NCBI GenBank assembly: GCA_021414025.1
Contig: JAIOPG010000002.1
Location: 186,001-250,000, forward strand
DNA: 64,000 bases
Reading direction: 5' to 3'
From: Planctomycetota bacterium
Lineage (GTDB): Bacteria > Planctomycetota > Phycisphaerae > Phycisphaerales > SM1A02
In this document: positions 1 to 56,371 of the stretch, in pieces
How the letters are laid out: each line of letters starts with the position of its first letter
Numbering within the stretch: the first letter of the stretch is position 1
Notes under the pieces: generated by a model
What the model was told of the DNA's origin: nothing
The model's database searches: none
Seen by the model: the letters and a program-made list of their open reading frames with translations, nothing else
Position numbers and translations under genes: made by a program

Positions 1-98
1 AACCTCAGGCCGGCTCGATCACGGTGCGGGTGGCGGGAGCGAAACCCCTCGCGCTTTCGCAGGCGGCGGCGGCGAAGATCCTGGCGCGACCGGTGTGA
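1..98 (+). CDS. C-terminal end of an unidentified protein (partial)
   Basis: The frame starting at base 3 stays open to a TGA at 96-98 and gives 31 residues ending in KILARPV. This is only the tail of a gene that begins outside the window, and it is too short to assign. It lies on the same strand as pheS, 63 bases upstream of the pheS start. Alanine- and valine-rich composition makes it more protein-like than the other two frames, but it could still be non-coding. Confidence 0.35.
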   Translation, partial: PQAGSITVRVAGAKPLALSQAAAAKILARPV

Positions 99-149
99 TC
101 GTGCGTGACGTGCGGCGGGAGCAAAAAGCCTCGGTCAAGGCAAAATCGC

Positions 150-155
150 TAAACT
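150..155 (+). promoter_or_regulatory. Leaderless-type -10 element of pheS
   Basis: TAAACT ends six bases before the GTG start codon and no Shine-Dalgarno-like sequence precedes the start. The same spacing recurs at cbs, the transsulfuration lyase gene, rsmE, hutU, hutH, ogt and glyA. Confidence 0.5.
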
Positions 156-161
156 TCGCCC

Positions 162-1154
162 GTGCTTGAAGCCATCGACCAACATGAGCAGGAGGCGATC
201 TCCACGCTGGCCTCCGCCGCCAACGCGGCCCAGCTCGAGGCGTGGCGAGTGGCCTGGCTGGGCACGTCCGGCCGCGTCGGCGCCATGATGGAGGCCCTTC
301 GCTCCGCCCCCAAGGAGAAGAAACCCGTCCTGGGCAAGCAGCTCAATGCCATGAAGCAGAAGCTGGAGGCCGCCTTCACGGAGAAAAAGTCCGCGGCCGG
401 GTCAGCACCGGAAGGGCCATCCATCGACCTGACCGAGCCGGGCCTGCCCGCGGGCATGGGTCGCCGCCACGTGCTCACGCGCACCATCGCCGACATCGTC
501 GACATCTTCGGACGCATGGGTTTCCGCGTGGCCGAAGGCCCCGAGGTGGAGGATGAGTGGCACAACTTTACGGCCCTGAACATTCCCGAGGGCCACCCCG
601 CCCGCGAGGCGACCGACAATTTCTACATGGCCGAGCAGGGGGGCGTGCGCCGCCTGCTGCGCACCCAGACCAGCACCGTGCAGATCCGCACCATGGAGAA
701 GGAGAAGCCGCCGCTGAAGATCGTCGCGGTGGGCCGCGTCTATCGGCCTGACACGCACGACGCCACGCATTTCTCGATGTTCCACCAGGTCGAGGGGCTA
801 TGCGTGGACAAGAACATCTCGATGGTCGACCTGAAGACGGCGCTCTGGCAGTTCGCTCGCGCCTGCTTCGGGCCCGAGGCCGAAGTGCGCATGCGTCCGA
901 GCTTCTTTCCATTCACCGAGCCCAGCGCCGAAGTGGACATGAAGATGAAGATCAAGGGCGAGTGGCGCTGGGTGGAACTTGGTGGGTGCGGCATGGTGGA
1001 TCCGGCAGTGTTCGAATCCGTCGGCATCGATCCTGAAATCTGGACGGGCTACGCCTTCGGATTGGGCGTGGAGCGCATCGCCATGCGCCGCCACGGCATC
1101 TCCGACATCCGCTGGCTCTACGAAAATGATGTGCGGTTTCTGAGACAATTCTGA
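162..1154 (+). CDS. pheS: Phenylalanyl-tRNA synthetase alpha subunit
   Basis: This is the catalytic alpha subunit of the cytoplasmic tetrameric enzyme that charges tRNA-Phe. The 330 residues have the family layout: an N-terminal coiled coil (about 1-80), then the class II aminoacylation core. Core signatures include FHQVEGLCVD (around 208-217), the GGCGMVDP segment and the motif 3 stretch GLGVERIAMRRHGI near the C-terminus. The start is GTG at 162; the ORF runs no further upstream from a better start. The stop overlaps the next start codon (TGATG), so the downstream gene is probably co-transcribed and translationally coupled. No pheT follows, so the beta subunit must be encoded elsewhere. Confidence 0.95.
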   Translation: MLEAIDQHEQEAISTLASAANAAQLEAWRVAWLGTSGRVGAMMEALRSAPKEKKPVLGKQLNAMKQKLEAAFTEKKSAAGSAPEGPSIDLTEPGLPAGMGRRHVLTRTIADIVDIFGRMGFRVAEGPEVEDEWHNFTALNIPEGHPAREATDNFYMAEQGGVRRLLRTQTSTVQIRTMEKEKPPLKIVAVGRVYRPDTHDATHFSMFHQVEGLCVDKNISMVDLKTALWQFARACFGPEAEVRMRPSFFPFTEPSAEVDMKMKIKGEWRWVELGGCGMVDPAVFESVGIDPEIWTGYAFGLGVERIAMRRHGISDIRWLYENDVRFLRQF

Positions 1155-43536: not shown

Positions 43537-45642
43537 TCAGGGGCAAGTGCCGAAGTCGAGCAGCGCTAATCCGACATCGCCGGAATCCACTTCGCCTGAG
43601 CCATCCAGATCGGTGGAGCAGCCGCTGCAAGGTCCGAAATCGAGCAGCATGAGCCCGATGTCGCCCGAATCCACCTCGCCCGATGCATCGATGTCGGCCG
43701 GACACTCGATGACAGGGTATTGAATGGCCAGCGCGTGGCCGAAGCCGGCGGCAATTGCAAAACTGCTCGAAAGAGTCGCGGGCACATTGGTTTGACCCGT
43801 GTCGTTTCTTCCCCAGGCAACAACCGATCCGCCATCACGTCGAGCCACGGTGTAGTAGCCGTTGGCGGAGATGGTGGCACAAGTGGATAAATTCGCAGGA
43901 ATGATGGCTTGCCCATATTGGGGACTCACGCCTGTGTTGAAGGTGCCCGCGCCCCACGCCAGAACGAATCCGGTGTCGCGAATCACTACGCTGTGAAAGG
44001 CCCCCGCGGCGACCGAGGTGCACAAACCAAGGGACACCGGAATGGTGGATTGTCCAAAGGAGTTGTTCCCCCAGGCCTTGACGAGACCGCTGGTTTGGAT
44101 GGCCAAGGTGTGACGCTCTCCGGCGGCAATGGCCTTGCAGGGTCCAAGGGACGCCGGGACCATCGATTGGCCGTAGTGATTGTTTGTGTTGAGATTTGAA
44201 GTTCCAGCTCCCCACGCCACCACACTTCCATTGGCCTTGATGGCCACGGTGTGGAAAGCGCCGGCCGCGATGGCCGTGCACGCGCCAAGGTTTGCCGGGA
44301 CGATGGATTGGCCGTAATGAGGGCTTGTGTTCGTGTCGGTGGCTCCCGCGCCCCATGCCACCACCGTTCCATCCTCCTTGAGGGCCACGGTGTGGTAGGA
44401 GCCCGCCGCGACCGCTTTGCAGGCGCCAAGACTTGCCGGCACGAGGGATTGTCCGAAATTGTTGTTCGTGCCGGTGTTCGTGGTTCCGGCCCCCCAGGCT
44501 GCGACCATCCCGGATTCCGTGATCGCCACGGAGTGGAAGCCGCCCGCTGCAATTTCCTTGAGATAGCCGCCGGGCGGCACCGTGGTTTGTCCGTCGATGC
44601 TGCTTCCCCAGGCCACGACGGTTCCATCTTCCTTAACCGCAAGGGTGTGGCTTAATCCGCCGGCGATGGCAATGCATGGCCCAAGAAGAATGCCGCCCTG
44701 GGTGGTTTGTCCATCGTCGTTCCGACCCCAGGCCACGAGCAATCCATTCTCAAGAAGTGCGATGGTGTGGTAGGTGCCCGCCGCAACGGCTTTGCAGGCA
44801 CCAAGAGTCGGAGGAATCATGGATTGACCGTAGTTCAAGGAGAAGCCCGTGTTCGTTGTTCCCGCACCCCACGCCACGACCGTTCCATCTTCCTTGATGG
44901 CCACCGTGTGGTAGCCGCCTGCCGCGATCGCCTTGCAAGGACCCAGATTGGCCGGGACCATGGATTGACCGTAGTTGCTGCTGGATCCGGTATTCGTGGT
45001 TCCCGCCCCCCACGCCACGACGGTTCCATCCGCCTTGATAGCCACGGTGTGGTAGTAGCCCGCGGCGATCGCCTTGCAGGCCCCAAGGGATGCAGGAACA
45101 ATGGATTGTCCAAAGTTGTCGCTGCCGGTTGTTGTGGTTCCCGCCCCCCAGGCGACGACGGTCCCAGCCGCTTGGATCGCGACCGTGTGGTATCGGCCGG
45201 TCGCAATCGCCGTGCATGTTCCCAGGTTTGCAGGGACTATGGATTGACCATAGTGGGGGGTACTTCCTGTGTTGGTCGTACCCGCGCCCCAGGCGGCGAC
45301 CGTTCCATCTTCCCTGAGCGCCACAGTGTGGTAACGACCGGCTTCAATGTCCTGGCATGCTCCTAGGGTCGCAGGCACGGTGGACTCACCGTAGGTGTTG
45401 ATGCCCCAACCTCCGACGATTCCATTTTTGTCCAGCGCCCAGGAGTGAGAAACGCTGGCGGCAACGGCCTTGCATCGGTGCGTGTTCACCGGCAATGTGG
45501 TTTGGCCATTGCTGTTGCTCCCCCAGGCCACCAGGTCACCCGCGTTTTCGGCGTGCGCGGCTTCCCCAGCCGTGAACAACGCAATGACGGCCATGGTTAA
45601 GCATGTGAAATGGTTTCGAAACGAAATCGATGTGAGGTTCAC
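43537..45642 (-). CDS. Exported RCC1-repeat protein 1 with calcium-loop tail
   Basis: 701 residues. A signal peptide ends near EAAHA. The body has 14 blades of the RCC1 type, each around the pattern LGxCKAIAAGxYHTVAIKEDGTVVAWG, with several longer inserts of the form AGTTNTG. Fourteen blades fit two seven-bladed beta-propellers. The last 55 residues hold two EF-like/dockerin-like loops, DASGEVDSGDIG and DLDGSGEVDSGDVG, each followed by LxLLDFGxC. RCC1 propellers usually mediate protein-protein binding. It lacks the promoter that precedes the other three members and starts 21 bases after gene 2, so it is probably read through from gene 2. Confidence 0.88.
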   Translation of the reverse strand: MNLTSISFRNHFTCLTMAVIALFTAGEAAHAENAGDLVAWGSNSNGQTTLPVNTHRCKAVAASVSHSWALDKNGIVGGWGINTYGESTVPATLGACQDIEAGRYHTVALREDGTVAAWGAGTTNTGSTPHYGQSIVPANLGTCTAIATGRYHTVAIQAAGTVVAWGAGTTTTGSDNFGQSIVPASLGACKAIAAGYYHTVAIKADGTVVAWGAGTTNTGSSSNYGQSMVPANLGPCKAIAAGGYHTVAIKEDGTVVAWGAGTTNTGFSLNYGQSMIPPTLGACKAVAAGTYHTIALLENGLLVAWGRNDDGQTTQGGILLGPCIAIAGGLSHTLAVKEDGTVVAWGSSIDGQTTVPPGGYLKEIAAGGFHSVAITESGMVAAWGAGTTNTGTNNNFGQSLVPASLGACKAVAAGSYHTVALKEDGTVVAWGAGATDTNTSPHYGQSIVPANLGACTAIAAGAFHTVAIKANGSVVAWGAGTSNLNTNNHYGQSMVPASLGPCKAIAAGERHTLAIQTSGLVKAWGNNSFGQSTIPVSLGLCTSVAAGAFHSVVIRDTGFVLAWGAGTFNTGVSPQYGQAIIPANLSTCATISANGYYTVARRDGGSVVAWGRNDTGQTNVPATLSSSFAIAAGFGHALAIQYPVIECPADIDASGEVDSGDIGLMLLDFGPCSGCSTDLDGSGEVDSGDVGLALLDFGTCP

Positions 45643-45663
45643 TTGAATTCCAGTTCATGTGTT

Positions 45664-47556
45664 TTAAGGGCAAGTTCCGAAGTCGAGCAGCACCATACCA
45701 ACATCGCCGCCGTCGACTTCGCCTGAGCCGTCCAGGTCGACGACGCAACCGGGGCAGGGGCCGAAGTCGAGCAGGACCATGCCGATGTCTCCGGTGTCCA
45801 CCGTGCCGGAGCCATCCAAGTCGGCTGGGCACGGCGTCTTCAGCAGCACCACGGTGTGCACGTAGCCCGCCGCGATCTCCCTGCAGGCGCCGAGGTGCGC
45901 CGGCACATTGGCCTGGCCGTAGCCGTTGTAGCCCCAGGGCACGATCACGCCGTTCTCCTGCAGCGCGATGGTGTGGTAGTAACCCGCGGCGATCGCCACG
46001 CAGGGGCTCAGCGTGTCCGGCACATTGCACTGGCCGTTGTAGTTGTAGCCCCAGGCCTTGACGATGTAATCGTCCTGCAGCGCCACGGTGTGGCCATAGC
46101 CCGCCGCGATCGCCGTGCAGGGGCCGAGATTTCCCGGCACCGAGCACTGACCATGGGCGTTCCATCCCCAGGCCACCACGCTTCCATTTTCGCGCAGCGC
46201 CACGGTGTGGTAGCGACCCGCGGCGATCGCCTTGCAGGCGCCGAGATTTGCCGGCACATTGGTCTGACCGTAGTTGTTGCAGCCCCACGCCATGACCGTT
46301 CCATCCACCTGAAGCGCGACCGTGTGAAATTGCCCCGCCGCGATCGCCTTGCAGACGCCGAGTTCCTCGGGCAGAGTGACCTGACCGTAGAAGTCATCCC
46401 CCCAGGCCACGACATTTCCATCCTCGGTGAGTGCGACACTGTGCGCAAAGCCCGCGGAAACCGCCTTGCATGGAGACATTTCCGCGGGCACGGAGCACTG
46501 GCCAAAGTCATTGAGACCCCAGGCCGCAACCGTTCCATTCTCACGGACGGCCAGCGAATGCTTGCATCCCGCGGCCATGGTCTTGCAATCGCCAAGGTCC
46601 GCGGGCACGACCGCCTGGCCGCAGGCGTTGATGCCCCAAACGACGACGATGCCATCCTCTTGGAGCGCCGCAAAGCTGTTGCCGCCCGCCGAAACTTCCG
46701 TGCAGGCCGCGAGCGACGCGGGCATGGTGATCTGTCCGTCGTTGTCGTAGCCCCAGGCGACGACGCTTCCATCCACCTGCAGCGCGACCGTGCGGAAGTT
46801 GCCCGCGGCGATCGCCTTGCAGGGACCGAGCGTCGGAGGCACCGTGGATTCACCGTAATAGTTGTAGCCCCAGGCCACGACGGTTCCATCGACCTGCAGC
46901 GCCACCGTGTGTCGGTATCCCGCGGCGATGGCCTTGCATTCGCCCAGTGTCGGCGGCACCTGGCACTGGCCATAGGAGTTGTTGCCCCAGGCCACCACCG
47001 TTCCATCTTCCTGAAGAGCCACGCTGTGATAAAAGCCCGCGGCGATCGCCTTGCAGGGAGCGAGCGACAGGGGCACATTCGATTCACCATTGCCGTTGTA
47101 GCCCCAGGCCACGACATGGCCATCCTCCTCAAGCGCAAGGGTGTGGTCGTCGCCGGCGGCGATCGCCTTGCAGGGCCCCAGTGTCGCGGGAATCGTGGTC
47201 TGGCCGTAGCTGTTCAGGCCCCAGGTGAAGACTGTTCCATCCATTGAGAGGGACACGGAGTGGCGATATCCGGCCGCCACGGCTTTGCAGGGGCCAAGAA
47301 AACCCGGCACATTGCATTGGCCGGAGTAGTTGCTGCCCCAGGCCGCGACCGTGTCGTCTTCCTGGATGGCGAGCATGTGATCGTCGCCCGCGGCGATCGA
47401 CTTGCAGGCATAGAGCGAAGCGGGGGGATCTCCCGCGCCCCATGCCGCGACCTGTCCGACATCGGAGGCGCGCGTCGTGATCGCGAAAAATCCAATCGCG
47501 ACCAGCGCTGCGCCTCGGAAAAAACTGGGGAAAAACCTAGGGAACAACCGGTTCAT
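45664..47556 (-). CDS. Exported RCC1-repeat protein 2 with calcium-loop tail
   Basis: 630 residues, the most regular member: signal peptide (FFRGAALVAIGFFAITTRAS), then 14 short blades such as LGPCKAIAAGDDHTLALEEDGHVVAWGYNGNGES, almost without inserts. The C-terminus has the loops DLDGSGTVDTGDIG and DLDGSGEVDGGDVG. Blade one starts in the first strand (DVGQVAAWG) and the last half-blade (AAGYVHTVVLL) precedes the tail, as expected for propeller closure between N- and C-termini. A promoter lies 15-43 bases upstream. Confidence 0.88.
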   Translation of the reverse strand: MNRLFPRFFPSFFRGAALVAIGFFAITTRASDVGQVAAWGAGDPPASLYACKSIAAGDDHMLAIQEDDTVAAWGSNYSGQCNVPGFLGPCKAVAAGYRHSVSLSMDGTVFTWGLNSYGQTTIPATLGPCKAIAAGDDHTLALEEDGHVVAWGYNGNGESNVPLSLAPCKAIAAGFYHSVALQEDGTVVAWGNNSYGQCQVPPTLGECKAIAAGYRHTVALQVDGTVVAWGYNYYGESTVPPTLGPCKAIAAGNFRTVALQVDGSVVAWGYDNDGQITMPASLAACTEVSAGGNSFAALQEDGIVVVWGINACGQAVVPADLGDCKTMAAGCKHSLAVRENGTVAAWGLNDFGQCSVPAEMSPCKAVSAGFAHSVALTEDGNVVAWGDDFYGQVTLPEELGVCKAIAAGQFHTVALQVDGTVMAWGCNNYGQTNVPANLGACKAIAAGRYHTVALRENGSVVAWGWNAHGQCSVPGNLGPCTAIAAGYGHTVALQDDYIVKAWGYNYNGQCNVPDTLSPCVAIAAGYYHTIALQENGVIVPWGYNGYGQANVPAHLGACREIAAGYVHTVVLLKTPCPADLDGSGTVDTGDIGMVLLDFGPCPGCVVDLDGSGEVDGGDVGMVLLDFGTCP

Positions 47557-47570
47557 GAGGAGGACGCCTC

Positions 47571-47599
47571 AGTATGACCGAAATCACACTTGAAGCAAA
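47571..47599 (-). promoter_or_regulatory. Shared-type promoter of RCC1 gene 2
   Basis: TTTGCT (47599-47594), 17-base spacer, CATACT (47576-47571) on the minus strand. The ATG follows 14 bases after the -10, so the leader would be about eight bases. Confidence 0.6.
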
Positions 47600-47670
47600 C
47601 AATAAACCCCGTGTCCAAGGAATCTTGGGTCCATAACACCACGCCTATTCACATTGTTTGCAGCGCCACG

Positions 47671-49770
47671 TTACGGGCAAGCGCCAAAGTCCAGCAGGAT
47701 CAGTCCGACATCGCCGCCATCCACTTCGCCGGAACCGTCGAGGTCGCTCGGGCAGCCGTCGCAGGGACCAAAGTCCAGCAGGATCAGTCCGACATCGCCG
47801 CCATCCACTTCGCCCGAGCCATCCAGATCGGATGGGCATGGCGTAGCCTGAATCACCACATCATGCACCTCGCCGGCGGCGATCGCGATGCAGGCGCCGA
47901 GACCCGCAGGAAGGCTGCATTGACCATAGTCGCGCAGACCCCACGCCACGAGTGTTCCGTTTTCCTGAATCGCGAGACTGTGGAATGAACCCGCGGCAAT
48001 CGCCTTGCAGGGTCCCAGATCCGCCGGCACGAGCACCTGGCCATATTGCGGCCAATCGTCGCCGGCATCGTCATCGGAGTCCTCGACGCCGGCGCCCCAG
48101 CCCACGACCGTTCCATCCTCGCGCAGAGCGAGCGTGTGCAGATTGCCCGCGGCAATGGCCGTGCATGGGCCGAGATCTGCCGGCACGACGGATTGACCGT
48201 AGTCCGGCCAAGCATTTGCGCCGCCGGATCCTTCGCCCCAGGTCACGACGGTTCCATTTTCAAGAAGAGCAACGGTGTGGAAGAGTCCCGCGGCGACCGC
48301 TTTGCACGGACCCAGATCCGCCGGCACGATGGACTGACCAAAGTCAGGGTAAGTCCCCATGTCAACACTTCCCGAGCCCCAGGCCACGACCGTTCCATCC
48401 TCGCGAATCGCAACGGAGTGATTTCCGCCGCCGGCAATCGCCTTGCAGGGGCCCAGGTCCGCCGGCACATTGCACTGACCATAGTCATTGCGGCCCCATG
48501 CGATGACGGTGCCATTCTCGCGGATCGCCATGGTGTGGAAGGCGCCGGCTGCGATGGTCTTGCACGCTCCCAGATCCACCGGCACATCGCACTGGCCGAA
48601 TTCATAGAAGGTGCCCGCGTTGTTGGCTCCGCCGCCAAAGGCCACAACGGTTCCATCGTCCTTCAGCGCCACTGTGTGATAGTCGCCTGCGGCAACGGCC
48701 TTGCATGAACCCAGCTCCTCCGGCACGATGCATTGGCTATTGATGTTGCGGCCCCATGCCAGGACATCGCCATTCTCCAGAACCAGTGCGGATTGGCCGG
48801 TGGTGCCGGAAATCGAAATGCAGGCGCCGACATTGGGCGGAAGCGTGGACTGGCTGTAGGCGTTGTTGCCCCAGAGGACGACACTTCCATTCTCCAGAAT
48901 GACCATCGTGTGATCGCCGGCGGCGGCGATGGTCTTGCAGGCGCCAAGATCAGCAGGCACATTGGCTTCGCCGTAGTCATTGGAACCCCACACCACAACG
49001 CTGCCATTGTCGCGCAGCGCCACGACCTGCTGGCCCCACGCCGAGATCGCTTTGCACGCGCCAAGATCCGCCGGCACAGTGCACTGGCCATCGTCATCAT
49101 TGCCCCACACCACGACAGCTCCGTCATCCTTCAACGCCACGGTGTGGGCGGCACCGGCGGCAATGGCCTTGCACGGACCCAGGTCCGCGGGCACAGTGGA
49201 TTCGCCGTACTCGTTGGAACCCCACGCCACCACAGTGCCATCTTCGCGCAGAGCAACGGTGTGAGCCCAGCCGGCGGCGATCGCCTTGCAGGGACCAAGA
49301 TCCGCCGGAACTTCCGACTGACCCATGTTGGGCCAGTTGCCGGGTGCCATGCCTTCTGTGCCCCAGGCCACGACCGTTCCATCCTGTTGAAGGACGACGG
49401 TGTGCAGCAGACCCGCGGCGATTGCTTTGCAATCACCAAGGTTCTCAGGAACTAGGATTTGTCCGAAGCTCGGCCACGCGTCAGTTTCATCCGCGCTGAT
49501 GGTGCCGGCACCCCAGACCACGACTGTGCCATCCGGCTGCAGCGCGACCATGTGAACCCAGCCCAGGGAAATGGTCGTGCAAGGGCCGAGAGTGGAGGGC
49601 GGATCTTCGCCTCCCCAGGCGACGACCGAACCGGTATCGCTGGCCGAGGCCGCGGGGGCATACAACGACATGCAGACAACAACAGCCAGAGACGCGAGGT
49701 GCCGCAATGCAGCAGCCACACCGGGTCGTCGCCGGATCGAGGACGATTGATTTGGTGATTGGGTCTTCAT
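47671..49770 (-). CDS. Exported RCC1-repeat protein 3 with calcium-loop tail
   Basis: 699 residues from the ATG at 49770. A basic leader (KTQSPNQSSSIRRRPG) precedes a hydrophobic stretch ending in AASAS. There are 14 blades; several carry acidic inserts (for example GAGVEDSDDDAGDDWPQYG). One blade has A-F-G in place of A-W-G. The last residues hold two nearly identical DLDGSGEVDGGDVGLILLDFG loops. The first ORF ATG at 49809 would add 13 residues but overlaps the promoter. The protein is acidic and probably calcium-stabilised outside the cell. Confidence 0.88.
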   Translation of the reverse strand: MKTQSPNQSSSIRRRPGVAAALRHLASLAVVVCMSLYAPAASASDTGSVVAWGGEDPPSTLGPCTTISLGWVHMVALQPDGTVVVWGAGTISADETDAWPSFGQILVPENLGDCKAIAAGLLHTVVLQQDGTVVAWGTEGMAPGNWPNMGQSEVPADLGPCKAIAAGWAHTVALREDGTVVAWGSNEYGESTVPADLGPCKAIAAGAAHTVALKDDGAVVVWGNDDDGQCTVPADLGACKAISAWGQQVVALRDNGSVVVWGSNDYGEANVPADLGACKTIAAAGDHTMVILENGSVVLWGNNAYSQSTLPPNVGACISISGTTGQSALVLENGDVLAWGRNINSQCIVPEELGSCKAVAAGDYHTVALKDDGTVVAFGGGANNAGTFYEFGQCDVPVDLGACKTIAAGAFHTMAIRENGTVIAWGRNDYGQCNVPADLGPCKAIAGGGNHSVAIREDGTVVAWGSGSVDMGTYPDFGQSIVPADLGPCKAVAAGLFHTVALLENGTVVTWGEGSGGANAWPDYGQSVVPADLGPCTAIAAGNLHTLALREDGTVVGWGAGVEDSDDDAGDDWPQYGQVLVPADLGPCKAIAAGSFHSLAIQENGTLVAWGLRDYGQCSLPAGLGACIAIAAGEVHDVVIQATPCPSDLDGSGEVDGGDVGLILLDFGPCDGCPSDLDGSGEVDGGDVGLILLDFGACP

Positions 49771-49781
49771 CGGGCTTTCGC

Positions 49782-49810
49782 AGTATGACCGTAAACCCGC
49801 TGAAAGCAAA
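49782..49810 (-). promoter_or_regulatory. Shared-type promoter of RCC1 gene 3
   Basis: TTTGCT (49810-49805), 17-base spacer, CATACT (49787-49782) on the minus strand, 11 bases before the ATG. Confidence 0.6.
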
Positions 49811-49886
49811 CAAAAAGTCGGGATTCACCGAGGAAATGGGCTGATAAGTCCTGAAAGGTGTCGGTCGTCGCACCACCTGCAACGCG

Positions 49887-51893
49887 TCACGAGCACGGAC
49901 TGTAGCTGAGCAGCAGCATGCCGAGATCGGCTCCATCCACTTCGCCCGAGTCGTCCAGATCGGAAGCGCATCCGCCGCATGGGCCGTAATCCAGGAACAT
50001 CAGGCCAAGATCTTCCGATCCAACTTCTCCGGAGCCGTCCAGATCGCCAAGACACGCATTCGACGCTTGGATTGCGACGGTATACCGGTTGCCTGCCGCG
50101 AGCACTTCACATCTTTCTAGGGTCGCGGGCACTGAAGTTTGACCGTAGTCATTCCGGCCCCACGCGACGACGAATCCATTTTCCTGAACGGCTGCGGTGT
50201 GATACACGCCCGCTGAGATCGCCTTGCAGACTCCAAGAGTCGCCGGCACAAGGGATTGACCGTAGTTCTCATTGGTCCAGGAATTGGTCAACCCCGCACC
50301 CCAAGCCACAACCGTGCCATCACTTTTGATCGCGACTGTGTGGGCGTTGCCTGCAGCGATTGCTTTGCACTGCCCTAGATTCGCAGGCACATTGCACTGA
50401 CCTCTCGCATTTTCCCCCCACGCTGCGACAGTGCCATCTTCCTTGAGTGCAACGGTATGGGCATTTCCGGCGGCGATGGCCATGCATGGTCCGAGAGCTG
50501 GAGGCACATTGCATTGGCCATTGCTATTCAAGCCCCACGCCACAACTGTGCCGTTGTTCTGGAGAGCCACAGAGTGGGCGTTGCCAGCCGCAATGGCCTT
50601 GCATTGTGCAAGAGTCCCCGGCACGGTGAGTTGGCCATTCAAATTCGATCCCCAGCCGGCCACACTGCCGTCTTCCTTCAAAGCGATGGAGAATGAACGG
50701 CCTCCTCCAATGGCTTTGCAGGCTCCAAGTGTTGGAGGCACAGTGGTTTTCCCATTGGCTGAGTTTCCCCACGCAACAACAGTGCCACTATCTTTAACGA
50801 CCAAAGTGTGGTCGTAGCCTGAGGCAATAGCTTTGCATTCACCCAGAGTTGCCGGCACATAGGGTTGACTGGCGTAGTTCTGGCCCCACGCCATAACGGA
50901 TCCATTTTCCTGGATGGCGACCGTATGCAAAGCGCCCGCGGAGATCGCTTTGCAAAGGCCAAGTGCTGACGGGATATTGCATTGGCTATACAAGTTGTAA
51001 CCCCAGTTTACGACTGTGCCATTTTCCATAAGAGCCACAGTGTGCAAACTGCCCGCTGCAATTGCCCTGCAGGGACCCAGAGTCGCAGAGACTGTGGATT
51101 CGCCGTAGGTGTTGTCGCCCCATGCAATAACTGTGCCATCTTCCTGGAGTGCAACAGTGTGAAATTGTCCCGCTGCAACGGCTTTGCAAGGTCCGAGTGT
51201 TACAGGCACATTGCATTGACCTTGGCTATTCGCTCCCCATGCAACGACCACCCCATTCTCCTTGATCGCGACTGTGTGGTTCCAGCCTGCGGCGATTGCT
51301 TTGCAGGCGCCAAGCGTTGCGGGCACGATGGACTGTCCACGATTTGGATCCGTACCGGTATTTGTTATTCCTGCTCCCCACGCCACCACGTTTCCATTTT
51401 CCTGGATTGCAACCGTGTGGTATTGGCCTGCCGCGATCGCCTTGCATGGTCCAAGCGTTGCGGGCACGATGGATTGACCAAGATTAGGATCCGTGCCGGA
51501 GTTTGTGATTCCCGCGCCCCAGGCCACGACGGTTCCATTTGCGGTCAGTGCCACTGTGTGGACATATCCCGCGGCAATGGCCTGGCAGGGGCCAAGCCCG
51601 GGAGGCACGACGGATTGCCCGACTTCGCCTGTGCCAATGGAAATGATGTTTGACGAGCCTGCTCCCCACGCCACGACCGATCCGTTTTCAAGCAAGGCCA
51701 CCGTGTGGTTGCTGCCTGCAGCGGTTGCCTTGCAGTTCACAAACAGAGGAGGATCCCCCCAGGCAACAACTGTGCCGGCGTCACGGGCAAGCGCACTTGA
51801 TGCAGGCACCACCATGAAAACAATCGCGGCTAGGGTCAAGAGTCGAACCAGGGCGTGGCCTGGGTTGGGAAGTGAAATCGGCGTTGTTTTCAT
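49887..51893 (-). CDS. Exported RCC1-repeat protein 4 with calcium-loop tail
   Basis: 668 residues from the ATG at 51893. Signal peptide (LLTLAAIVFMVVPASSALA), then 14 blades. Blades two to four and thirteen have the longer AGxTNxG inserts also seen in protein 1. The tail has GDLDGSGEVGSEDLGLMFLDYG and SDLDDSGEVDGADLGMLLLSYS, more diverged than in the other members. As the first gene of the array in transcription order and with its own promoter, it may be the founder or a separately controlled member. Confidence 0.88.
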   Translation of the reverse strand: MKTTPISLPNPGHALVRLLTLAAIVFMVVPASSALARDAGTVVAWGDPPLFVNCKATAAGSNHTVALLENGSVVAWGAGSSNIISIGTGEVGQSVVPPGLGPCQAIAAGYVHTVALTANGTVVAWGAGITNSGTDPNLGQSIVPATLGPCKAIAAGQYHTVAIQENGNVVAWGAGITNTGTDPNRGQSIVPATLGACKAIAAGWNHTVAIKENGVVVAWGANSQGQCNVPVTLGPCKAVAAGQFHTVALQEDGTVIAWGDNTYGESTVSATLGPCRAIAAGSLHTVALMENGTVVNWGYNLYSQCNIPSALGLCKAISAGALHTVAIQENGSVMAWGQNYASQPYVPATLGECKAIASGYDHTLVVKDSGTVVAWGNSANGKTTVPPTLGACKAIGGGRSFSIALKEDGSVAGWGSNLNGQLTVPGTLAQCKAIAAGNAHSVALQNNGTVVAWGLNSNGQCNVPPALGPCMAIAAGNAHTVALKEDGTVAAWGENARGQCNVPANLGQCKAIAAGNAHTVAIKSDGTVVAWGAGLTNSWTNENYGQSLVPATLGVCKAISAGVYHTAAVQENGFVVAWGRNDYGQTSVPATLERCEVLAAGNRYTVAIQASNACLGDLDGSGEVGSEDLGLMFLDYGPCGGCASDLDDSGEVDGADLGMLLLSYSPCS

Positions 51894-51913
51894 ATGACTT
51901 CCGGAATGCTCGC

Positions 51914-51942
51914 AGTCTAACTCCAAACACCTCCAGGGCAAA
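51914..51942 (-). promoter_or_regulatory. Shared-type promoter of RCC1 gene 4
   Basis: TTTGCC (51942-51937), 17-base spacer, TAGACT (51919-51914) on the minus strand, 20 bases before the ATG. Confidence 0.55.
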
Positions 51943-55276: not shown

Positions 55277-56371
55277 CTAATGCGGGAAAATTTCAGCCGC
55301 TGCCAAGACAACCGTCTGATCAAATCGGCGTTCTGGCGAGAGTCGTTCGTGGCCGCCATTGAGAATGATGACCCTAAGGCGGTCTTTTGTGACCGCTGGA
55401 CGCAGAAGCCTTGGATGATGAAGATAGGAATGCGTAATTGCACCACTTAGCGCGAATTCCTTATCGCTTTGATGTCCATAGGTCATCTGTTCGAACACAT
55501 TTGCGAGTTGCACTCTTCCCACACGAGTGACCTCGAAGAGTATTCGCCAGACACGCAGCAATGCGCGAGCATGTCTGGAGATGTCCCCCGGGTTCCTTTG
55601 GGAGTTGACTCGATCTGCCACCACTCGCAAAAGAGCGAGATCCGTCCAGAGGAAAATGTCAAACGCATTGTCAGCCAGATGGGGGCTTTTGCCTTTTGTT
55701 TTCCATACAGGCTGCAGCACTAATGGTGTCTGAAATGGAGCGAGGCATGCCTGCAAATTTTGCATTCTTTCTATTACACGGGGGAGAAGGGCGAGCATTT
55801 CCTGCTGGTGTCCCCAATCGTTAACGTTTTGGCAGATCGGTTCCACAATTTCGCGTAGTTGAGTCCTCGCATCTACAGATGCCGTGTGGAACAAGCCGAG
55901 GGCACAGTGCATCGTGGTTGAAGGCCGTACAACCAACTCGGGGGCCCACTCACACTCTGGTTTGGTTAGTGTCGTATTGTCAGGAACAGTTGTTAGCTTG
56001 ATTTCAAACGGTCGCAATTGATCTCCTATGCCGGTTCCAGATGCCGATGCGTTCCCGATTACAAGGTCGGCTCTCTCAATATTCTCTGGGTCGTAGAGAT
56101 AATCGCGATATGGTTCGAATGGCGACTCAAAATTGTAAAATGGTCGATCGGCGCGCTTTGTAGCGAGGGCTTCGCCTGCATCCACCTCCACAATTTCCGT
56201 GCGGACTCCATCGTCGGCAGTCACTTGGAGAAGGCTGACGCGGTTGTCGCGCATCCAGCAGGCAAGCGCAGCAGGAAAACAACCGTTGAACTGATTCTTG
56301 CCCCATAAATCATCCCCGCGTCGATTGCTGAGGCCGATCCCGTAAAGTGATGGTTCGGGGGGTGTGGGCAT
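55277..56371 (-). CDS. HindVP-family type II restriction endonuclease (probable)
   Basis: 364 residues. The N-terminus (PSLYGIGLSNRRGDDLWGKNQFNGCFPAALACWMRDN) resembles HindVP-family endonucleases, whose characterised members cut GRCGYC. Segments NFESPFEPYRDYLYDPENIERADLVIG and FEIKLTTVPD carry an acidic/EIK arrangement reminiscent of a PD-(D/E)xK nuclease core. Base composition is clearly less GC-rich than neighbours, a sign of transfer. It is divergent from the methyltransferase with a 78-base shared promoter region, a standard restriction-modification layout. Family call from memory of the signature; the exact specificity is inference. Confidence 0.75.
   Translation of the reverse strand: MPTPPEPSLYGIGLSNRRGDDLWGKNQFNGCFPAALACWMRDNRVSLLQVTADDGVRTEIVEVDAGEALATKRADRPFYNFESPFEPYRDYLYDPENIERADLVIGNASASGTGIGDQLRPFEIKLTTVPDNTTLTKPECEWAPELVVRPSTTMHCALGLFHTASVDARTQLREIVEPICQNVNDWGHQQEMLALLPRVIERMQNLQACLAPFQTPLVLQPVWKTKGKSPHLADNAFDIFLWTDLALLRVVADRVNSQRNPGDISRHARALLRVWRILFEVTRVGRVQLANVFEQMTYGHQSDKEFALSGAITHSYLHHPRLLRPAVTKDRLRVIILNGGHERLSPERRFDQTVVLAAAEIFPH

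Follow-up and report, generated by a model that had tools for sequence, protein, structure and literature searches.

Four adjacent genes for fourteen-bladed RCC1/BLIP-II-type proteins with a dockerin-like tail in a Phycisphaerales-type bacterium

Four neighbouring open reading frames (ORFs) of the RCC1/BLIP-II type, here designated R1 to R4, occupy positions 43537-51941 of the minus strand in the window, the 64,000-nucleotide stretch of DNA analysed here (C2:186001-250000). The window belongs to the 2.8 Mb assembly of a freshwater Phycisphaerales-type bacterium, a genome that is 97% complete. The four products are likely to be secreted, tandem double propellers with a dockerin-like tag and a ligand-binding face that are displayed at the cell surface or in a complex. 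Each protein would consist of two seven-bladed RCC1/BLIP-II-type beta-propellers in tandem and, C-terminal to them, a dockerin-like calcium-binding domain of 55 residues, which may serve as a shared tag for sorting or attachment. Since only complete rings would fold, the number of repeats would be kept at multiples of seven.

The four genes and their blades

The four genes lie some 20 to 115 bases apart and are arranged as follows.

43537..45642, minus strand: R1, RCC1/BLIP-II protein of 701 residues (685 from the ATG at 45594), 14 blades, dockerin-like C-terminal tail
45664..47556, minus strand: R2, 630 residues, 14 blades; AlphaFold2 predicts a two-helix tail behind two seven-bladed propellers
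47671..49809, minus strand: R3, 712 residues (699 from the ATG at 49770), 14 blades, dockerin-like tail
49887..51941, minus strand: R4, 684 residues (668 from the ATG at 51893), 14 blades, dockerin-like tail

A preliminary description of this DNA had assigned 14 blades to each protein and placed the row at 43537-51893. The blade number was confirmed for all four: splitting the proteins at W-G or F-G yields 14 blade signatures in each, and a position-specific scoring matrix (PSSM) independently counts 14 AxAGxxHTVAL cores in each. The extent is correct as well, provided that R4 starts at its ATG (51893). Blades are mostly 39 or 47 residues long; the 47-residue form is numerous in R1, and the loops of R3 are the longest of the four. 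The proposed combination of a constant blade number with variable loops also holds, with 14 cores in each of four proteins of differing lengths.

The Pfam family RCC1_2 matches R1-R4 with E-values of 1e-91 to 1e-116, far above the cut-off of 22 bits, and RCC1_2 and RCC1-like domain matches reach E-values as low as 1e-124. NCBIfam gave no useful result. The N-termini of all four are hydrophobic and, judged by eye, similar to signal peptides; on these sequences R1-R4 are presumably exported or secreted. Cysteine is found at core column 4 in 54 of the 56 blades, where BLIP-II has valine, and each protein contains 16 to 26 cysteines, which is unusual for exported proteins. The cysteine at column 4 is possibly buried or, in some blades, paired with the cysteine of GQC.

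Repeat number in the genome and in relatives

A search of the genome with RCC1_2 detected at least 150 repeats, and two counting methods gave at least 25 RCC1 ORFs, R1-R4 among them. Paralogues were read from genome regions with RCC1_2 matches, so that a weak-repeat paralogue elsewhere could be missed. The repeat number is a multiple of seven in all 24 intact ORFs, with seven repeats in 8 ORFs, 14 in 15 (including R1-R4) and 21 in a single one. Two of these counts were settled by reading the sequence; the PSSM counter returned 6 for one seven-repeat ORF and 13 for one 14-repeat ORF and had missed a weak repeat that is seen on reading. Such counts are far from chance. Exactly 14 blades is accordingly a property of R1-R4 but not their special feature, as the same genome also uses 7 and 21. 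The sole RCC1 ORF that departs from multiples of seven (L092, C6:227078-228199) ends inside repeat 8, lacks a tail and adjoins four intact family members. It probably arose by truncation of a 14-repeat copy.

Loci of relatives were collected from 80 public contigs, for which the query biases to long arrays, and from genomes related at the level of genus, family or order; the present genome was counted with them. Typically, these arrays have 7, 14, 21 or 28 repeats: a counter based on a hidden Markov model (HMM) found multiples of seven in 68 of 106 closed ORFs, and in 71 of 106 once gaps of double spacing were filled. Many of the non-multiples in the HMM count are one repeat short, a degenerate or weak blade having been missed. 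Outside this genome, multiples of seven are a strong preference, not a law. Repeat number does not vary freely among homologues, which agrees with the preliminary description, but 6, 8 and 11 also occur.

The blade register of R1-R4 was assessed by comparing the DNA identity of same-index blades with the background identity in all six pairs. Five pairs show no signal (for instance R1-R2, 0.600 versus 0.600, and R3-R4, 0.600 versus 0.597), whereas R2 and R3 are in register (0.665 versus 0.623, standard deviation 0.010). At the protein level, register is missing in most pairs genome-wide, with exceptions that include C8c-C8d. Core identity among the blades of one protein averages about 0.4-0.6, the best pair of blades at the DNA level reaches 0.85, and the near-identical blades of recently amplified, WRAP-like propellers were not found in the RCC1 proteins of this genome. 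Because most neighbours lack blade register, the shared blade count looks set by ring closure and not by recent copying. For most pairs, the sequences suggest that equal counts are not simply a matter of recent descent; they may stem from old common descent followed by homogenisation of the blades. Propellers are known to be continuously re-amplified from single blades, and WD40 repeat numbers peak at 7 and 14 (Pereira and Lupas, PMC9218822).

If the equal counts merely reflected a recent tandem duplication of a single 14-repeat gene, the adjacency of R1-R4 and the DNA register of R2 and R3 would be as expected, but not the lack of a register signal in the remaining five pairs, nor the unlinked paralogues with 7, 14 and 21 repeats that obey the same rule. 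This explanation is considered very unlikely. Tandem duplication as the origin of all four genes was rejected on the register evidence, except for R2/R3. Paralogues with little blade register that nevertheless have 7, 14 or 21 repeats represent a natural test of fold closure as a constraint on repeat number.

Predicted structure and ring closure

Of the four window proteins, R2 alone was modelled with AlphaFold2, using an alignment of 18 rows. The model has a mean predicted local distance difference test score (pLDDT) of 87.9 and a predicted template modelling score (pTM) of 0.66; confidence drops at residues 271-280 and 301-320, close to where repeat 7 gives way to repeat 8. Foldseek places BLIP-II at the top (E 4.6e-28, template modelling score 0.89 by target length). 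With VIA-align 2, the model superimposes on BLIP-II with a Z of 39.7 at 1.4 A over 265 of 273 residues (model range 32..573), and on UVR8 with 264 residues over 49..313. According to this model, R2 probably forms two seven-bladed rings, and the folded double seven-bladed propeller of the preliminary description is supported for the protein modelled, in which two closed propellers are predicted. The most economical reading of the model is that residues 49-313 are one contiguous ring, so that the first propeller would comprise repeats 1-7, while the N-terminal strand (34-40) appears to close the second ring with repeats 8-14. The strand is placed in the second ring because of the alignment ranges in the R2 model.

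Alternatively, two propellers in series could be closed independently, each by the strand with which it begins. Short linkers occur at repeat 7/8 in the C8 cluster, and the 21-repeat gene has another at 14/15; in these four paralogues, the extra residues lie between the HTVAL and WG strands, the site expected if a new ring starts with the WG strand. At this same site, several GTDB relatives (L136, L139, L140 and L173) have insertions that are about 100 residues long or longer. R1-R4, in contrast, have an ordinary hairpin with DG/NG at core 7. The N-terminal strand is, moreover, grouped with the second ring both in the R2 model and in the model of a linker-bearing paralogue with its linker in the 7/8 hairpin (pTM 0.52), to which BLIP-II aligns over 25..578. 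Independent closure is regarded as rather unlikely, but may still apply to the linker-bearing group, whose model has the lower confidence.

Variable positions and the putative binding face

Column entropy was calculated over the 56 blades of R1-R4, with columns 28 and 30 taken from 39-residue blades. It is highest at columns 11 and 12 of the AAGxxH motif (3.7 and 3.3 bits), followed by columns 28 and 30 of WGxNx (3.3 and 3.2 bits); the next most variable columns are 39, 3 and 31 (2.7 to 2.6 bits). The framework is well conserved, with 0.3 to 1.6 bits at the AAG, H and DG columns and next to no variation at WG. At the variable columns, the residues change from blade to blade. From the order of the strands, we infer that the AAGxxH turn and the WG loop share one face, with the DG turn on the opposite face. 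The hypervariable residues, of which the AAGxxH turn contributes two and the WGxNxxGQ loop two to three, would then be exposed on one face of each ring together with those of the 8-residue loop inserts. By analogy with the beta-lactamase-binding face of BLIP-II, this face is most likely an exposed binding surface for extracellular ligands. BLIP-II contacts beta-lactamase at residues such as F74, N112, Y113, W152, D206, Y208 and F209, which we take to be positions equivalent to the variable ones.

The propellers could instead have a structural or spacing function in the envelope or in a complex outside the cell, with variable positions that drift without a role in binding. No partner of the propellers is known, the paralogues are numerous, and the cluster is without an enzyme gene of an obvious pathway, all of which would suit such a function. 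Variability is, however, confined to a few columns on one face of a near-invariant framework, and BLIP-II, the nearest solved relative, is a binder. A purely structural role is considered unlikely.

The dockerin-like tail

The C-terminal tails of the four proteins are located as follows.

43540..43704, minus strand: R1 tail, 55 residues, two F-hand loops, dockerin-like
45667..45831, minus strand: R2 tail, dockerin-like; loop and helix twice in the model (588-596, 616-624)
47674..47838, minus strand: R3 tail, dockerin-like
49893..50054, minus strand: R4 tail, dockerin-like, more divergent than the other three; position 9 of the first loop is G

In agreement with the shared two-loop calcium tail described before, R1-R4 all finish with two D-x-D-x-S-G-x-x-x-x-x-D loops over about 55 residues. 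A search of the genome with one tail gave 75 places, and an iterated profile identified 75 tailed ORFs. In 68 of these, there are 0 to 5 residues between the end of the tail and the C-terminus. The majority (51 of 75) are not RCC1 proteins and include S8, M14 and M12B peptidases, alpha-amylases and a GH18 enzyme. In the genus and most of the family, each genome contains tens of copies of the tail. When a profile built from 19 tails was searched against the PDB, dockerins ranked first (2y3n, E 9e-7; 8ajy, 3e-6; 2mte, 4e-5; 1daq), followed by calmodulins. The arrangement of type I dockerins, two 12-residue F-hand loops each with a helix, is found in the 75 tail sequences and in the helices of the R2 model.

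Instead of an attachment tag, the tail might be a generic pair of EF-hand calcium loops with a stabilising effect on the C-terminus. EF-hand models do match the tails weakly, calmodulins come next after dockerins in the PDB list, and a cohesin was not detected in the genome. Against this, dockerins rank first in the profile search, and the 75 tailed proteins, otherwise unrelated, nearly all have the tail at the C-terminus, as a tag would be. A merely stabilising function is regarded as rather unlikely, and the sorting-type tag suggested in the preliminary description is consistent with the distribution of the tail, which is common to proteases and glycosidases. As such a tag, it would display the propellers at the cell surface or as part of an extracellular complex, alongside the dockerin-tagged proteases and glycosidases.

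A few tails deviate from this pattern. In L065 (C7:337361) and L072 (C6:325000 region), the tail is far from the C-terminus, at 252 and 451 residues. At L087 (C2:809490-813772), three adjacent seven-repeat proteins are followed by a domain that looks, by eye, like an IPT/TIG-type domain; the L087 proteins end in half a tail only (one calcium loop).

Points against the proposed arrangement and its possible meaning

Several results weigh against the interpretation as tagged, ligand-binding double propellers. Taken singly, tails score below the Pfam Dockerin_1 cut-off (best 16 versus 22.9 bits), hence the term dockerin-like. A cohesin-like partner of the tail, which had been suggested as a check, was not recovered: PF00963 has no match in this genome at E-values up to 1, and neither does this genome contain a homologue of the cohesin/HYR region of L221, a locus of a relative. 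A missing contig of the 97% complete genome or a very divergent cohesin are possible reasons. R2 is the only one of the four proteins modelled, and its ring-closing strand comes from AlphaFold2 at a pTM of 0.66 with the 18-row alignment; in the model of the linker-bearing paralogue, the N-terminal strand likewise belongs to the second ring, whereas the linker would suit separate closure. No ligand is indicated by any of the results. In relatives, arrays that read as complete fall outside multiples of seven, namely L104 (11), L229 (8) and L234 (6).

A strict multiples-of-seven rule for all homologues was rejected, since these three loci appear to break it. L104 and L229, from the same order, are dockerin-tailed RCC1 genes with very similar, highly repetitive blades. 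Their counts may be true exceptions or the outcome of near-identical repeats that were collapsed in assembly. Weak to clear cohesin matches are present in a few other members of the genus. L221, from the same genus, combines a cohesin match with an HYR-like region and dockerin-like loops and resembles the proposed planctosome adaptor. This raises a pointed question about the receptor of the tag, given that no cohesin is detectable in this genome.

Beyond the four genes, the approximately 24 dockerin-tagged propellers could constitute an extracellular recognition repertoire, with blades amplified or reshuffled within genes, ring closure fixing multiples of seven, and the propellers held on a non-cohesin receptor together with proteases and glycosidases that bear the same tag. 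This wider scenario is tentative and, as a whole, improbable. Taken individually, the parts are all of known kinds; what is of interest is how large the family is, the shared tag, the strictness of the counts within a single genome and the receptor that is missing.

Genomic neighborhood

The genes around R1-R4 are ordinary and encode UDP-glucose dehydrogenase, a methylguanine methyltransferase, serine hydroxymethyltransferase (SHMT) and a release factor. A HindVP-type restriction endonuclease is encoded at 55277-56371 (PF09519, E 1.7e-89).

Comparison with known systems

No paper on planctomycete RCC1 proteins was found in the literature searched. Like R1-R4, which are presumably exported, BLIP-II (PDB 1jtd, 3qhy) is secreted and has three-stranded blades of 39 residues, seven per ring, and it shares about 40% identity with R2 over the structural alignment. 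BLIP-II, a beta-lactamase inhibitor, has one ring and no tail, whereas the proteins described here would have two (or three) rings and a C-terminal dockerin-like domain, with a conserved cysteine in nearly every blade.

The 14-blade WD40 protein Npun_R6612, known as WRAP (PMC6805158, PMC9218822), likewise arranges 14 repeats as two seven-bladed rings. It belongs to another propeller lineage, and its blades are nearly identical, in contrast to the core identities given above. In Utp4 (PMC5456268), the N-terminal ring is contiguous and blade 14 is completed by the N-terminus, as predicted for R2. Utp4 is a eukaryotic ribosome-assembly protein with four-stranded blades and a solved structure, whereas R2 is a prediction.

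A cohesin/dockerin protease complex, the planctosome, has been proposed for freshwater Nemodlikiaceae (Andrei et al., PMC6461901). A cohesin-bearing scaffold or adaptor of this kind was not detectable in the present genome. Similarities are the origin from freshwater Phycisphaerae and the presence of dockerins on secreted M12B and M14 peptidases. The text of the planctosome paper (PMC6461901) mentions neither RCC1 nor propellers, whereas a third of the tailed proteins in the present genome are RCC1 propellers. They are the largest recognisable class that bears the dockerin-like tag here, which bears on the role of the proposed planctomycete surface complex.

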